This document shows, in pieces, positions 23,425 through 29,101 of a stretch of DNA of 64,000 bases; the first letter of the stretch is position 1, and every line of letters starts with the position of its first letter. Where the stretch lies: assembly GCA_902593675.1 (NCBI GenBank), contig CACJJI010000001.1:124001-188000 (forward strand), given 5' to 3'. The position numbers and the translations under genes were made by a program. The stretch comes from an uncultured SAR86 cluster bacterium. GTDB lineage: Bacteria > Pseudomonadota > Gammaproteobacteria > Magnimaribacterales > D2472. The notes beneath the pieces were generated by a model. The model made no database searches, had not been told where the DNA came from, and was given only the letters and a program-made list of their open reading frames with translations.

Positions 23425-24021
23425 TTATCTAGATCTGTTTTTTAATTCTTGAACCACATCAGAGTAATTAAGATTTAATTTTCTAAGCATTACCAATAAG
23501 TGATACATCAAATCAGCTGATTCGTTAATCACTCTTCCATCGTTTGTGACTGCTGAGATTGACACTTCACCCGCTTCTTCAGTTATTTTTTTGGCAATTT
23601 CCTTCACACCATCTTTATAGAGTTGATAGGTATATGAAGCAACATTTGCTTCCTTGAATCTCTTATCTATTATTTGCTCTAAATCATCTACAAAATTTCT
23701 AGAGGAGGGCGCATCAATAAAGCAAGAATTATTGTCTAGATGGCAGGTGGGACCGTTGTTTTTAGCAAGAATTAATAATGTATCTTTATCGCAATCATGA
23801 AGAATTTTTTTAATGGCTAATTTATTTCCAGATGTTTCACCCTTGGTCCATAATTTTTTTCTTGTTCTGCTAAAAAAGGTTGCAAAACCAGATGATTGCG
23901 AGAGCTTTAGCGCTTCTTTGTTCATGTACCCCAACATCAAAATTTCCAATGTTTCATGGTCTTGAACAATAGCCGGTATCAACCCATTAACTTTATCCCA
24001 GTCTAGATTTATCTTTTTCAT
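23425..24021 (-). CDS. hisI: Phosphoribosyl-AMP cyclohydrolase / phosphoribosyl-ATP pyrophosphatase
   Basis: A 198-residue bifunctional enzyme (HisIE) for the second and third histidine steps. The N-terminal HisI half has VQDHETLEILMLGYMNKEALKLS and FFSRTRKKLWTKGETSGN. CDKDTLLILAKNNGPTCHLD carries the Zn and Mg ligands. The C-terminal HisE half has KKITEEAGEVSISAVTND and SADLMYHLLVMLRKLNL, a MazG-like helical unit. The last gene of the his operon, its start overlaps hisF by 4 bp. It converges on the AGCS symporter with 1 bp between stops. Confidence 0.92.
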   Translation of the reverse strand: MKKINLDWDKVNGLIPAIVQDHETLEILMLGYMNKEALKLSQSSGFATFFSRTRKKLWTKGETSGNKLAIKKILHDCDKDTLLILAKNNGPTCHLDNNSCFIDAPSSRNFVDDLEQIIDKRFKEANVASYTYQLYKDGVKEIAKKITEEAGEVSISAVTNDGRVINESADLMYHLLVMLRKLNLNYSDVVQELKNRSR

Positions 24022-24785
24022 AATCTTACATTTACATTATTGGCTCTTAAAGCCTCTTTAATTTGCCCTACAGAAAATTCATTTCTATGGAATATGCTTG
24101 CCGCAAGAGCACCGTCTACTTGTGTTTTCTTAAAAACATCGATGAAATCGTCTGGTCCTCCAGCTCCACCAGAAGCAATAATAGGTATGGAGCATTTGCG
24201 CTCAAGTGATCTTAATAATTCAAGATCGTATCCAGTCTTAACGCCATCTTGTCCCATTGCATTAATTACAACTTCTCCAGCTCCAAGATCTTGAACCTGA
24301 AGTAACCAATCTATTGCTTTTTTGTTAGTACAATATGCAGTTTTTTCATTTCCTGTTTTAGCAAAGAGATATGCTTCAGCATCTTTAAATTTAATATCCA
24401 TACCTATCACAACACACTGAGAGCCAAATTCGTTACTTAGTTGGCTGATTAAGTTTGGATTAATTAATGCAGGGGTATTAATGGAAATTTTATCAGCTCC
24501 TAGGTTGAGTATTTGCCTGGCATCCTCCAATGTTTTTATACCACCTGCAACACAAAAGGGGATATCTATAACATCAGCTACTTTAGATACCCAATTTTTG
24601 TTTACGATTGATCCTTCTGTGCTTGCAGAAATGTCATAGAAAACTAGTTCATCAGCTCCATCATTTGAATACTTTTTAGCTAAATTCATAATCGATCCAA
24701 CGATTTGATGATTTTTAAATTGAATACCTTTTACAACTTTATTATTTTTAACATCAAGGCATGGAATTATTCTCTTAGTAATCAT
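24018..24785 (-). CDS. hisF: Imidazole glycerol phosphate synthase cyclase subunit
   Basis: A (beta-alpha)8-barrel that, fed with ammonia by HisH, makes imidazole glycerol phosphate and AICAR. The ATG at 24785 gives 255 residues starting MITKRIIPCLDVKNNKVVKG, as HisF does, with GAGG about 9 bp upstream; an earlier in-frame ATG would add 11 residues. D11-type Asp is in CLDV, and the second catalytic Asp is in VVIGMDIKF. The phosphate loops are IASGGAGGPDDF and GALAASIFH. The start overlaps hisA by 11 bp. Confidence 0.93.
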   Translation of the reverse strand: MITKRIIPCLDVKNNKVVKGIQFKNHQIVGSIMNLAKKYSNDGADELVFYDISASTEGSIVNKNWVSKVADVIDIPFCVAGGIKTLEDARQILNLGADKISINTPALINPNLISQLSNEFGSQCVVIGMDIKFKDAEAYLFAKTGNEKTAYCTNKKAIDWLLQVQDLGAGEVVINAMGQDGVKTGYDLELLRSLERKCSIPIIASGGAGGPDDFIDVFKKTQVDGALAASIFHRNEFSVGQIKEALRANNVNVRL

Positions 24786-25494
24786 TATTAAGATCCTCAA
24801 GAGATATATTTTTTTCATAAATTGCTTTTCCTATGATGGCTTCTTTAATTTTCAAAGTTTTTAAACTATCTAGATCTTCAAGAGATCTAATGCCTCCAGA
24901 GGCAATAAGATTAACTAAGGGAAATGTATTTAAAATATGTTCATAAATATCAAAACTAGGACCTTGCATTGCTCCATCTAGAGATATATCTGTCGCAAGA
25001 ATATTTAAAAAGAATGATTGGTCAGATAGAAACTCGTGTAATGAAATATCAGTTGTATTTTGCCATCCATGTGTATAAATTTTTGGAGTCTCATTTATAA
25101 CCTTAAAATCTAACGCCAGCACTATCTGATTAGAATCAAAATTCTTTTTAATATCCTCAATAAAACCATCTTGAAATAAAGCTGTCCCAAGAATAATTCT
25201 GGAAGCTCCCATTTCAATCATTGTTTCAATTGTTTTAATGGATCTAATTCCTCCACCAACTTGTATAGAAATATCTGGGATTTTTAAAATTTCTTTAATT
25301 ACATCTAAGTTAGATTGATTACCAGTCTCAGCCCCATCAAGATCTACAATATGAAGATAATTTAGCTGATTCGATTTAAAGATTTCTACTTGAGCCAATG
25401 GATTGAAATTGTATTCAGTGATATTGGCAAAATCACCTTTAAGCAACCGAACACAATTTCCATTTTTAAGATCAATGGCAGGTAATATTTTCAT
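24775..25494 (-). CDS. hisA: ProFAR isomerase
   Basis: A 239-residue (beta-alpha)8-barrel isomerase of the fourth histidine step. MKILPAIDLKNGNCVRLLKGDF carries the catalytic Asp, and IQVGGGIRSIKTIETMIEMGASRIILGTALF gives the first phosphate loop. Later segments are LATDISLDGAMQGPSFDIYEHI and ASGGIRSLEDLDSLK. Length is near E. coli HisA (245). Gene order hisH-hisA-hisF-hisI matches E. coli. Confidence 0.93.
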   Translation of the reverse strand: MKILPAIDLKNGNCVRLLKGDFANITEYNFNPLAQVEIFKSNQLNYLHIVDLDGAETGNQSNLDVIKEILKIPDISIQVGGGIRSIKTIETMIEMGASRIILGTALFQDGFIEDIKKNFDSNQIVLALDFKVINETPKIYTHGWQNTTDISLHEFLSDQSFFLNILATDISLDGAMQGPSFDIYEHILNTFPLVNLIASGGIRSLEDLDSLKTLKIKEAIIGKAIYEKNISLEDLNNDY

Positions 25495-26072
25495 ATTTCA
25501 TTAAAAAAATAATTTAAAAATCTTTTGCCAGCATGCGAAGATTTTTCTGGGTGGAATTGACAACCTAGAAAGTTATTTTTTTGAATTGTGGCCGTAAAAG
25601 GTTGGCCATATTCAGCTGTAGCTAATGTGTGGTTATAAATTTGAGAATAGTAACTATTAGCAAAATAATAATAATCATCGAGTTTTTTTACTTGCTCTTG
25701 AAGGAAGGTCACCTTATTCCAACCCATCTGAGGTACCTTAATGTTTAATTCGGGATTAAATTTTTTAATATTTCCTGAAATTATACCCATACACTCAGTA
25801 TTATTTTCTTCCGATTGATCAAACAAAACATGCATGCCTATGCAGATACCAAGAACAGGTGAAGTTAAATATTTAACAGTCTCTAATAGATTATTTGATT
25901 TCAGGCTCTGCATAACACTGTTAGCCGATCCTACTCCAGGTAAAATAACATATGATGCAGATGACACTTTGGCTTTATCATTTGTAATGATTGATTTCAT
26001 GTTTTGCAGTTCAACCGCTCTTTGAACTGAACGTAGGTTTGCTCCACCGCAGTCAACAATGGCAACAGTCAC
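25491..26072 (-). CDS. hisH: Imidazole glycerol phosphate synthase glutaminase subunit
   Basis: A 193-residue class I glutamine amidotransferase that supplies ammonia to HisF. MTVAIVDCGGANLRSVQRA is the usual start. The nucleophile Cys is in VLGICIGMHVLFDQSEE, and the His-Glu pair in FLGCQFHPEKSSHAG. It overlaps the hisDB stop by 4 bp and the hisA start by 4 bp, so translation is likely coupled through the operon. Confidence 0.93.
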   Translation of the reverse strand: MTVAIVDCGGANLRSVQRAVELQNMKSIITNDKAKVSSASYVILPGVGSANSVMQSLKSNNLLETVKYLTSPVLGICIGMHVLFDQSEENNTECMGIISGNIKKFNPELNIKVPQMGWNKVTFLQEQVKKLDDYYYFANSYYSQIYNHTLATAEYGQPFTATIQKNNFLGCQFHPEKSSHAGKRFLNYFFNEI

Positions 26073-27940
26073 AATAATCCTTTTGTAGATGAGGATTTAA
26101 TAGATTCAACAACAATTGCAGATTTTAGGCATCTTGCAAAAGTTTTAAATGTTGCTTCAAGTAGGTGATGTGAGTTTTTACCACTTGTTTCAATGTGACA
26201 TGTCATAGCTGCGGCATTAATCAATGATACAAAAAAATGTTCAAACATTTCAGTAGGAAAATCTCCAACATAGTCTCTTAATTCGGAGCATTTGAAATCA
26301 AGATAACGTCTTGAACTTAAATCTATACTGACATTACTTTTAACCTCATCCATTACCAAAATTTCACTAGAAGCATATCTACTGATACCAACTCTATCCC
26401 CAAGGGCGCTATTAATTGCAGTTCCTAATGCAATAGCTATGTCTTCAATAGTGTGATGCTCATCAATCTCTAAATCGCCTAAGCAAGATAAATTTAAGTC
26501 GATTGATCCGTGTTTAGAGAATTGCTCAAGTAAATGATCTAAATAATTTAGACCAGTCTTTATATTGTAGTTACCTGTTCCATCTAAATTCAGATTTATA
26601 TAAATACTCGTTTCATTTGTTTTTCTTATCTCTGTAAACATTCTTGATGATTCCAGATGAGAAGCTAAATTTTCACGTATTTTTACAGCATTTTCATGCG
26701 CATCTAATGTTTCTGCTTGAGCCATTTTCATCACGGTATCTTTTAAATTATTAAAGCCCTCTGGTGATGCTGTTTGCACACTAATTTGTTTTCCAAAATC
26801 AATTACACCAAGACCTGAATGAACCTTTGATTGTCCATTTGTTGGTAACACATGATTTGTTCCGGATGAGTAATCACCGAATGATTCTGGGCTTAATGAG
26901 CCACAAAAAATCGATCCAGCATTATTAATGTTAATAAGATATTTTGAATAATCTTCATCTAATAGAATTAAATGCTCAGGTGCACATTCATTAATTAGAG
27001 CAACTGCATCTTTAAAAGATTTTGATTTAATAAGTAACATGTTTTCTATGCTTTTATTTAAAATAGCCTGCCTAGAAAGTTTTTGAATCTGTTTTTTGAG
27101 TTCTACTTTAATCTTGTTAAGAATAGCTAGATTATTTGAGATAATAAAAGCTCTCGAATCTGGATCATGTTCTAGCTGCGATAGCGCATCTGCAGCTGCA
27201 ATGGAAATATTTTTTATGCTGTTGGTTACGATCATTACCTCACTTGGACCCGCGGGTAGATCTATTGCAACATCATTAGAGATAAGTTTTTTTGCCGTAT
27301 TCACATAAGCATTTCCTGGACCAAATATTTTGTTGACCTTTGGAATAATTGTTGTTCCATATGCCATACCAAATATAGCTTGAGCGCCGCCAACTTTATA
27401 GATGCTTGATATGCCATACAATTTTGCTATCCATAATAATTCAGGCGCTATTTGGCCATCCGGATTTGGTGGAGTACAGACAACTATTTTTTTACATCCC
27501 GCAACTTTAGCAGGGATAAGTTGCATTAATAATGATGAAATTAAAGGAGCAGTGCCTCCAGGAACATATATTCCTACCGAATCAATGGGTCTAAACTCCT
27601 TCCATACTTTAATACCCTTAGTTGTTTCAATAGGCATCACTGTTAAACTTCTTTTCTCATTTTCACAAATAGTTTTTATATTTGCTGCTGAATTAAGAAT
27701 TGACTCCTTCAAAACATCTGAAACCATCATCTCAGATTTCATAATTTCTGATATTTTGACTTTATAAGAACGTGGAGATATTAAATTTAACTCTTGATTA
27801 ATTTCATCAAAAGCTTTGGAGCCTTTAGTCAAGACTAAATTTTTAATACGTAAAACTGTTTTCTCTAGATCTTTTTCTAAAGAACTATTAGCTAACCATT
27901 GAATTTCTTTATTTGAATTCGAGCGATTTAAAATCTTCAT
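26069..27940 (-). CDS. Histidinol dehydrogenase-imidazoleglycerol-phosphate dehydratase fusion (HisD-HisB)
   Basis: A single 623-residue reading frame with two complete histidine enzymes. Residues 1 to about 428 are histidinol dehydrogenase: VGIYVPGGTAPL (122-133), FGPGNAYVNTAKK (206-218), DLPAGPSEV, the zinc/catalytic CAPEHL (319-324) and TNHVLPT (361-367). Residues about 434-623 are imidazoleglycerol-phosphate dehydratase: GLNYLDHLLEQFSKHG (463-478), DEHHTIED (493-500) and GKNSHHLLEATFKTF (587-601), the metal-binding histidines. In E. coli hisC lies between hisD and hisB; here it is gone and the two are joined by a short linker. The phosphatase half of E. coli HisB is absent too. Both domains look intact. 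Confidence 0.92.
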   Translation of the reverse strand: MKILNRSNSNKEIQWLANSSLEKDLEKTVLRIKNLVLTKGSKAFDEINQELNLISPRSYKVKISEIMKSEMMVSDVLKESILNSAANIKTICENEKRSLTVMPIETTKGIKVWKEFRPIDSVGIYVPGGTAPLISSLLMQLIPAKVAGCKKIVVCTPPNPDGQIAPELLWIAKLYGISSIYKVGGAQAIFGMAYGTTIIPKVNKIFGPGNAYVNTAKKLISNDVAIDLPAGPSEVMIVTNSIKNISIAAADALSQLEHDPDSRAFIISNNLAILNKIKVELKKQIQKLSRQAILNKSIENMLLIKSKSFKDAVALINECAPEHLILLDEDYSKYLININNAGSIFCGSLSPESFGDYSSGTNHVLPTNGQSKVHSGLGVIDFGKQISVQTASPEGFNNLKDTVMKMAQAETLDAHENAVKIRENLASHLESSRMFTEIRKTNETSIYINLNLDGTGNYNIKTGLNYLDHLLEQFSKHGSIDLNLSCLGDLEIDEHHTIEDIAIALGTAINSALGDRVGISRYASSEILVMDEVKSNVSIDLSSRRYLDFKCSELRDYVGDFPTEMFEHFFVSLINAAAMTCHIETSGKNSHHLLEATFKTFARCLKSAIVVESIKSSSTKGLL

Positions 27941-28806
27941 TAATTTAATATTTTTTCAACGGGTAAAACTAAAATTGAAGAAGCCCCATTTAATTTTAAT
28001 TTTTCCATTGTTTCCCAAAATACTGGTTCTTTACACAAGGCGTGTATTGCAACTTTATTATCCTTTTGCAAAGGAATAATTGTCGGTGAATCTGCTCCAG
28101 GTAATAATTTGCATATTTTTTCAGTTGAATTTCGATCAACATTTAACATTACATATTTGCTTTCTTTCGCATTAATCACACCCTCAAACCTTTTAATTAA
28201 ATTTATGATATTTGTTTGGGTGATTTTTTTTGATTCAACCGGAGATATTAAAACAGCCTCCGATTCCATAAGCGATTTAAATTCAATTAAATTATTTGCC
28301 TCTAGCGTTGCGCCAGATGATACAAGATCACAAATACAATCTGCTATACCTATGTATGGAGTCAATTCAACGGAACCATTAATTTTTATCACCTCGGCAT
28401 TTATTTCATTGTTCTTTAAATATTTTTTAACTAGAGCAGGATAAGATGTTGCTATTGTCTTATTTTTTAGAGATCTCAGTTTTGAATTTAAAGGTTTTGC
28501 AAATGCAAGTTTGCATCTAGAGAAACCTAAATTTAGAACAGTTTTAGCAGTAATTTTTTTGTTTGTTGCAACTTGTTCGGCCAAAACGTTTTGGCCTACA
28601 ATCCCTAGATTCGCAACTCCCTTAGATACCAGTGACGGAATATCATCATCCCTTACTAACAGTATGTCTATGTCTAAATTAGATGATCTAGCTAGTAACT
28701 TTTCTCCTGATGTTGAAAAGTTAACTCCTGATCTTATTAAAAGATTTTTACTGTCATCAAAAAGTCTACCTTTTCGCTGAATTGCAATTACTATCTTCGA
28801 TGACAT
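27940..28806 (-). CDS. hisG: ATP phosphoribosyltransferase (long form)
   Basis: A 288-residue enzyme for the first histidine step, the long HisG form with a C-terminal regulatory domain that responds to histidine. IAIQRKGRLFDDSKNLL starts the catalytic part, then VRDDDIPSLVSKGVANLGIVG and IADCICDLVSSGATLEANNL (the PRPP loop). The C-terminal ACT-like domain (about 220-288) contains LLPGADSPTIIPLQ. Feedback inhibition is therefore expected, as in E. coli. Its stop codon overlaps hisDB by 1 bp, and it lies 3 bp after the yerC-like gene. Confidence 0.93.
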   Translation of the reverse strand: MSSKIVIAIQRKGRLFDDSKNLLIRSGVNFSTSGEKLLARSSNLDIDILLVRDDDIPSLVSKGVANLGIVGQNVLAEQVATNKKITAKTVLNLGFSRCKLAFAKPLNSKLRSLKNKTIATSYPALVKKYLKNNEINAEVIKINGSVELTPYIGIADCICDLVSSGATLEANNLIEFKSLMESEAVLISPVESKKITQTNIINLIKRFEGVINAKESKYVMLNVDRNSTEKICKLLPGADSPTIIPLQKDNKVAIHALCKEPVFWETMEKLKLNGASSILVLPVEKILN

Positions 28807-28809
28807 CTT

Positions 28810-29067
28810 TTAACCTTTTTTTAGCGCTTTTAGATAGCCTTGATTAGATTCTTTATATAAGAATCTTGCAACACGTGTAACTGTTGCTGTTGATGTTTTC
28901 AATTGTGATGCTATATCTCTATATGTTGATCCGCCTTTATAAAGAAGTTTGGCAACTTCCCAGCGTTCTTCCATTGCCTCAATTTCAGATGGCGTGCATA
29001 AATCTTTTAAAAAATCATCTATGTCTTTGGATGAATTTATGTTTTTGAGTACTGTTGATAATTTCAT
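28810..29067 (-). CDS. YerC/YecD (TrpR superfamily) transcriptional regulator
   Basis: An 85-residue protein of the YerC/YecD-TrpR family. LCTPSEIEAMEERWEVAKLLYKGG (about 26-49) and the helix-turn-helix STYRDIASQLKTSTATVTRVARFL (about 47-70) are typical. As the first gene of the his operon, 3 bp before hisG, it is probably a local repressor of histidine synthesis. Whether it senses histidine, tryptophan or something else is not shown. A perfect inverted repeat 15 bp upstream of its start could be its own operator. Confidence 0.85.
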   Translation of the reverse strand: MKLSTVLKNINSSKDIDDFLKDLCTPSEIEAMEERWEVAKLLYKGGSTYRDIASQLKTSTATVTRVARFLYKESNQGYLKALKKG

Positions 29068-29081
29068 GGGATGATTCTATA

Positions 29082-29101
29082 TGTTTTAATATGTTAAAAC
29101 A
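29082..29101. promoter_or_regulatory. Candidate operator: perfect inverted repeat upstream of the yerC-like/his operon
   Basis: TGTTTTAA-TATG-TTAAAACA, two perfect 8-base arms around a 4-base spacer, lies 15 bp upstream of the yerC-like start and 68 bp upstream of the divergent peroxiredoxin start. TrpR-family proteins bind palindromes of about this size near their promoters. It could be the site for self-regulation of the his operon. Because the region is AT-rich, chance or an unrelated function cannot be excluded. Confidence 0.5.

Follow-up and report, generated by a model that had tools for sequence, protein, structure and literature searches.

One gene of an uncultured bacterium of the SAR86 cluster, a clade within Gammaproteobacteria, raises the question of whether two enzymes from non-consecutive steps of histidine biosynthesis can work as a single protein, and by which route such a protein would come about. 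The gene lies in a stretch of 64,000 nucleotides (GCA_902593675.1, contig CACJJI010000001.1, positions 124,001 to 188,000), hereafter the window, and positions are counted from its first base. An initial annotation, made from the letters alone, had read it as one uninterrupted frame for histidinol dehydrogenase (HisD) and imidazoleglycerol-phosphate dehydratase (IGPD, HisB). We consider it very probable that the gene encodes one bifunctional polypeptide, with HisD (the last two steps of the pathway) at the N-terminus and IGPD (step 6) at the C-terminus, formed by stepwise loss. The parts of the gene are the following:

26069..27940, minus strand: hisD::hisB fusion gene, a single ATG-started open reading frame (ORF; 27940->26069) of 623 aa
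26675..27940, minus strand: HisD part, residues 1-422 (TIGR00069 at 31-422, PF00815 at 22-422; residues aligned to 1k75)
26627..26674, minus strand: junction or linker, residues 423-438, placed from the predicted structure and the sequence
26072..26626, minus strand: IGPD (HisB) part, residues 439-623, of HisNB type without the HisN half, according to the HisB models and the IGPD tree

The coding strand is the minus one, the plus-strand translation of 26069-27940 being full of stops. TIGR00069 (hisD, NCBIfam) covers residues 31-422, near full length, with 443.9 bits against a cut-off of 243.8, and PF00815 (histidinol dehydrogenase) reaches 461.5 bits (cut-off 27). HisB models cover residues ~432-623, where PF00475 (IGPD) matches over its whole profile with 176.6 bits (cut-off 27); among the NCBIfam HisB models, NF002114 alone clears the score required of it (190.3 vs 189), whereas the other 12 fall below theirs. 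The single frame with both domains is confirmed by these matches, and the borders first given for it were correct to within a few residues. In the alignment with E. coli HisD (1k75), Q255, H258, E322, H323, D356, H363 and H415 correspond to Q259, H262, E326, H327, D360, H367 and H419, the Zn ligands and catalytic Glu/His residues of the E. coli enzyme. The IGPD half keeps DEHHTIED (493-500) and NSHHLLE (589-595), containing HHTIE (495-499) and HHLLE (591-595), the two HHxxE metal motifs. Both active-site sets are intact, as had been claimed. The top scorer among the HisB models on this half is the HisNB model, while an N-terminal DDDD-type HisN phosphatase was not matched in the fused ORF (NF003937 covers profile positions 154-355 alone, 237.5 bits vs a cut-off of 443), in agreement with the earlier remark that the phosphatase half of HisB is missing.

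The genome is a draft (1.51 Mb, 20 contigs, 81% complete), which could favor a misassembly or a sequencing error at the junction. Whether the fusion recurs had been left to a search of related genomes, and it does. From 203 genomes of the order, 124 gave a match to the fused protein. In the SAR86 family of the window (107 genomes), the junction lies in one stop-free frame in 54 of the 55 matching genomes by hand count, including the single-contig genomes G026 and G032. This recurrence refutes a misassembly, to which we assign a negligible probability. In the 55th genome (G145), the locus begins at a contig end and is cut (L287), and in G105 and G009 the gene is split into several frames, with the breaks away from the junction.

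The fusion is present in 9 of the 10 genera of this family, and separate hisD and hisB genes were not seen in any of its genomes in the search of the order. Among the 52 family genomes without a fusion match, 49 have no hisF over the cut-off (43 without a match, 6 below it), so the absence of the fusion accompanies the absence of the operon. The remaining three are G013, with a hisH2-hisF2-like pair outside any his operon, and G035 and G115, with operons cut by contig ends. The his operon appears to have been lost in genus g7, since neither the fusion nor a hisF match was found in its 10 genomes (G031, G092-G100). In other SAR86 families (5 genomes pulled; L231-L240), a short hisG stands beside hisD, while hisB lies apart from these with hisH and hisA behind it; their HisD and HisB fall in parts of the trees different from those of the window's family. 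Judged by these sequences, two different sets of his genes occur in the order, and the operon of the window's family may either be foreign to the other families or have survived there alone.

A gene fused in DNA may still yield two proteins, by proteolysis of the linker or by an internal translation start for IGPD. Within the protein, constraint is weakest in the linker, with ratios of nonsynonymous to synonymous substitution rates (dN/dS) of 0.16-0.67 (23 codons, 5 pairs), and the linker differs among loci in sequence and also in length (judged by eye, 14-18 residues for L223, L001 and L022); the window also has an ATG at codon 434. However, this ATG is not conserved, and neither a conserved internal start nor a candidate start with a Shine-Dalgarno-like site was found in the 16 SAR86 loci scanned (17 were selected; the pattern missed L224, and L227 has unresolved bases). 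The frame remains open despite the variable linker, and in the structural model the HisD helix (412-428) reaches to a few residues from the first IGPD strand (433-439; model numbering without the initial Met, to which 1 is added). Two separate products are unlikely in our judgment. It is less likely still, to the point of being hard to sustain, that one half is catalytically dead and serves as a scaffold only. The motif residues are intact in both halves, and dN/dS is low in HisD (0.09-0.16 in 5 pairs, with dS of 1.2-2.2, near saturation) and in IGPD (0.08 in the sole unsaturated pair of 5). Moreover, the window's genome contains one match to the whole fusion, so that this 81% complete assembly shows neither another hisD nor another hisB. 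The fused protein is most likely a working bifunctional enzyme, an activity predicted from the conservation of both halves.

The monomer model has a mean predicted local distance difference test (pLDDT) score of 84.3 and a predicted template modeling (pTM) score of 0.77. In Foldseek, the best HisD structure was 6an0 (TMt 0.76, root-mean-square deviation [rmsd] 18.5), and IGPD structures reached a TMt of up to 0.95 among the matches listed. The HisD part of the model counts against our reading: residues 363-378 (model numbering) are below pLDDT 50, and the whole part superposes poorly on most solved HisD chains (rmsd ~18 A, TMt 0.72-0.78), with 4gic giving an rmsd of 4.8-5.5 A. Domain swapping in the HisD dimer may explain the poor superposition of the monomer.

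Outside SAR86, the fusion was searched for in samples of the class and of the Rhodothermales phylum, both with the best matches listed, and in a contig scan. In Gammaproteobacteria, 309 of 369 genomes matched, and among the matches listed the one-frame fusion was found in the window's genome only. The contig scan (best 80 of 581), with gene maps covering L001-L060 and L085 and leaving out L061-L084 and L086-L110, gave two non-SAR86 fusions in 31 mapped loci, one in a Rhodothermales metagenome-assembled genome (MAG; L035) and the other in a Bacteroidota MAG (L036). Within Rhodothermales, 110 of 114 genomes matched. In 23 of them the fusion spans the junction (21 nearly complete, 2 truncated at contig ends), the genome of L036 (G569) being one of these; the proteins are 40-49% identical to that of the window. 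In the phylum sample, 334 of 395 genomes matched, with 12 fusions among the matches listed, all within the same 23. No fusion beyond SAR86 and Rhodothermales was found among the matches listed of the two samples (369 Gammaproteobacteria, 395 genomes of the Rhodothermales phylum). Present in 9 of 10 genera of the SAR86 family and in Rhodothermales, the fusion is neither unique nor recent.

Several candidates were discarded. Two loci with matches spanning both domains (L142, L143) were ruled out as fusions, as they contain adjacent separate hisD and hisB frames, and other matches running past the junction in the class and phylum samples have stops inside. A gammaproteobacterial frame of 789 aa that looks like hisD::hisC (L259:4747-7113) was not counted; it has unresolved residues, one of them at the junction. 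L142, L143 and L268, from the gammaproteobacterial family f147, share the order hisG-hisD-hisB-hisH-hisA, unfused and without hisC between hisD and hisB.

How the fusion arose can be approached from gene orders and from the descent of the IGPD half. The order G-D::B-H-A-F-IE is kept in the window, with C and N missing. The initial annotation had attributed the fusion to the loss of hisC together with the hisD stop. Indeed, hisC is gone exactly at the junction, but hisN was lost too: the IGPD half is of HisNB type, so the loss of hisC and the stop alone is insufficient. In the IGPD tree, rooted at midpoint, the SAR86 fusions form one clade (100/99) within the HisNB-type part, at a distance from the stand-alone HisB of the other SAR86 families, and are sister to an unfused hisD + hisNB locus (L038; 100/96). 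The loci in the trees were hand-chosen (17 SAR86 and 18 Rhodothermales fusion loci, and others; unused ones include L192, L195, L210, L035, L254 and L259), and domains covering <80% of the seed profile were dropped.

Among the compact operons tabulated, hisC lies between hisD and hisNB in all 16 from Gammaproteobacteria and all 14 from Bacteroidota, and also in L089. The orders D-C-NB, D-NB, D-B with a non-HisN leader, and D::B all exist in living bacteria. Five Rhodothermales loci have hisD-hisNB without hisC (L243-L247), and in two others (L241:2716-3687 and L242:676-1692) the IGPD frame after hisD carries a leader of ~130 residues without a HisN match, possibly a decayed HisN. We suggest that the ancestor of one SAR86 family had a compact hisR-hisG-hisD-hisC-hisNB-hisH-hisA-hisF-hisIE operon. 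The hisC gene would have dropped out of the gap between hisD and hisNB, with a hisC at another place providing the histidinol-phosphate aminotransferase; an in-frame deletion would then have taken the hisN half and the hisD stop, placing HisD before IGPD in the position of HisN. This order of events (hisC first, then hisN and the stop) is the simplest reading.

Some observations do not fit this route well. L038, the locus nearest to the SAR86 fusions in both the HisD and IGPD trees, has the order hisC, hisD, hisNB in separate frames, with hisC upstream of hisD and not between hisD and hisNB; it comes from a single AT-rich MAG labelled Gracilibacteria, and a composition-driven attraction is possible. 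The loci with intermediate orders take no consistent position at the base of the fusions. L243 and L245 cluster with operons of Gammaproteobacteria; L241/L242 fall with Bacteroidota in the IGPD tree, but in the HisD tree they join the majority of the Rhodothermales fusions (85). Intermediate gene orders exist; as ancestors they are not proven.

SAR86 and Rhodothermales agree in domain order and in the shortness of the linker, which could be the result of one shared fusion event spread by horizontal transfer, and both groups are largely marine. When all fusions were held as one clade, the approximately unbiased (AU) test did not reject it for HisD (p-AU 0.35), but did for IGPD (p-AU 0.006) and for the HisG-HisD-IGPD-HisH concatenate (7e-6; 67 loci left after dropping six that lack one of the four proteins). 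The concatenate also rejects a clade made up of the SAR86 fusions and the 14 main ones from Rhodothermales (4e-10), while the 16 Rhodothermales fusions as one clade are not rejected (p 0.51). SAR86 with L193/L194 alone as a clade is rejected by IGPD (p 0.0006) and not by HisD (p 0.38). The Rhodothermales fusions need two label changes in the IGPD tree and three in the HisD tree. In these comparisons, the amino-acid make-up deviates in many rows and is unmodelled, and the HisD and concatenate trees are quick trees. A shared event seems rather unlikely, though less so than the two-protein case above. We favor two origins because the IGPD and four-protein trees reject a single clade, although HisD alone does not; the fusion probably arose independently in SAR86 and Rhodothermales, by convergence.

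The initial annotation had proposed to look for hisC and a histidinol phosphatase in the rest of the genome. The first was found: hisC was deleted from the junction, as stated, but it is present in the same genome (G000:C5:35952-37010, 339.2 bits vs a cut-off of 276.55), which rules out its loss from the genome. In the window's genome, G008 and G033 (L111, L119, L124), it sits in a cluster that we read as serC-pheA-hisC-tyrA-aroA, the neighbors being named from a presumed resemblance of their translations. In the family, hisC is over the cut-off in 56 of 107 genomes. The absence of hisC from an operon need not mean the loss of the pathway. Other places for this gene occur in the family: in five genomes of genus g5 (L116, L120/L225, L121, L290, L293), hisC comes directly after hisIE, unlike its place in the aro cluster, and in G027 (L223) it is convergent at the position after hisIE.

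No phosphatase could be assigned, which counts against our reading of the fusion. TIGR02067 found three inositol monophosphatase (IMPase)-like genes in the window's genome, none of them reaching the cut-off, and no match over the cut-off in 13 genomes. One of these genes stands beside trmJ- and secDF-like genes and is taken here for SuhB; another has some match in all 107 family genomes at E 0.001, paralogues included. The closest IMPase-like candidate has close relatives in his-lacking genomes (e.g. G029, G031) and none close in the his-bearing G027 and G028, and so it does not track the pathway. TIGR01656 (haloacid dehalogenase [HAD] type, HisN/GmhB-like) is over its cut-off in 3 of 11 his-bearing genomes, including that of the window, and in 1 of 4 his-lacking ones. 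As no histidinol phosphatase was assignable from the IMPase-like or HAD-type searches, the PHP type not having been searched, the completeness of the pathway is not established.

For the assembly of metabolic pathways, the fusion of his genes serves as a standard example. The prokaryotic fusions that appear in the available sections of PMC8305728, PMC1963479 and PMC11237513 are HisNB, HisIE, HisHF and archaeal HisA/F-HisIE, with no HisD-HisB among them. The survey of his genes in 91 Bacteroidota-Rhodothermota genomes reports hisNB and hisIE fusions and states that its Rhodothermota HisB match the IGPD region; those same sections do not mention HisD joined to HisB (PMC8305728). In the text available of PMC3828012, hisD-hisB appears as part of a gene list only. 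In our searches of the openly licensed literature, no description of a HisD-HisB fusion appeared among the papers listed, which, within this limit, agrees with the initial statement that none was known; automatic database annotations may exist.

Among known arrangements, HisNB of the E. coli type also has a C-terminal IGPD behind another pathway enzyme, and the IGPD halves group together, but its N-terminal partner is the DDDD phosphatase HisN in place of HisD. Fungal HIS4 (HisI-HisE-HisD) also joins HisD to other his enzymes, as seen in part of PMC1963479, although there HisD is C-terminal, joined to HisIE and without IGPD. The Acanthamoeba protein with seven functions holds HisD inside a multi-enzyme his fusion, but it is eukaryotic and IGPD is separate, according to the sections available of PMC6029752. 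Rhodothermales hisD::hisB is alike in domain order, short linker and the disappearance of hisC and hisN from the junction; it differs in its probably independent origin and in having no TrpR-like gene beside hisG at the threshold used (18 tabulated).

As for the assembly, the IGPD of the plant Medicago is a 24-mer whose outer face is formed by the N-terminal beta-sheet, an assembly described as conserved across kingdoms (in the part available of PMC10978614). With this sheet facing out, and with HisNB tolerating an enzyme in front of IGPD, a HisD placed there could face outward, and the fused protein probably assembles on the IGPD 24-mer with HisD outside. Taken together, a fusion that evolved at least two times, with hisC and hisN gone each time, and a 24-chain particle of ~1.6 MDa (24 chains of ~69 kDa) in which IGPD is the core and up to 12 HisD dimers replace HisN as the outer layer, form a tentative proposal, to which we give somewhat less than even chances. 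If true, one particle would bring together step 6 and the NAD-dependent end of the pathway in a fixed 1:1 stoichiometry. Direct channelling is unlikely, since steps 6 and 9-10 are not consecutive, and the gain is more likely to have been compaction and fixed stoichiometry rather than substrate channelling. The joining of non-consecutive steps argues against channelling as a general reason for fusions, in a case accompanied by D-C-NB, D-NB, D-B and D::B orders and apparently convergent in two phyla.

The cluster around the fusion is tightly packed, with all genes on the minus strand in the order regulator-hisG-hisD::hisB-hisH-hisA-hisF-hisIE. Its other elements are:

29082..29101, no strand assigned: palindrome TGTTTTAACATATTAAAACA (minus-strand reading), candidate HisR operator, perfect over 20 bp, 14 nt before the regulator ATG
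28810..29067, minus strand: regulator of the TrpR family (YerC/HisR-like), heading the cluster (TIGR02531, PF01371)
27940..28806, minus strand: hisG, long form with the HisG_C domain (profile matches); its stop shares base 27940 with the hisD::hisB start
25491..26072, minus strand: hisH (profile match), overlapping the hisD::hisB stop by 4 bases if its GTG start is right
24775..25494, minus strand: hisA (profile match)
24018..24818, minus strand: hisF (TIGR00735, 321 bits)
23425..24021, minus strand: hisIE, bifunctional (NF002747, 248 bits)

YerC of the TrpR family is the histidine repressor HisR in the available sections of PMC9413887. In the AT-rich window, a loose form of the palindrome pattern gives 10 matches (<=2 mismatches) against 5.1 expected, and 4 of 100 shuffles reach as many; as the loose pattern is not uncommon there, the evidence for an operator lies in position and conservation. 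TGTWTTA...TAAWACA palindromes start 26-37 nt ahead of the regulator frame's first ATG in 15 of 21 SAR86 loci, a set that includes three genomes twice (L021/L228, L027/L230, L031/L229). An outer base is changed in L003, the palindrome is partial in L031/L229 and L225, and none is found in L027/L230. These upstream palindromes resemble the proteobacterial HisR motif as it appears in the accessible part of PMC9413887.

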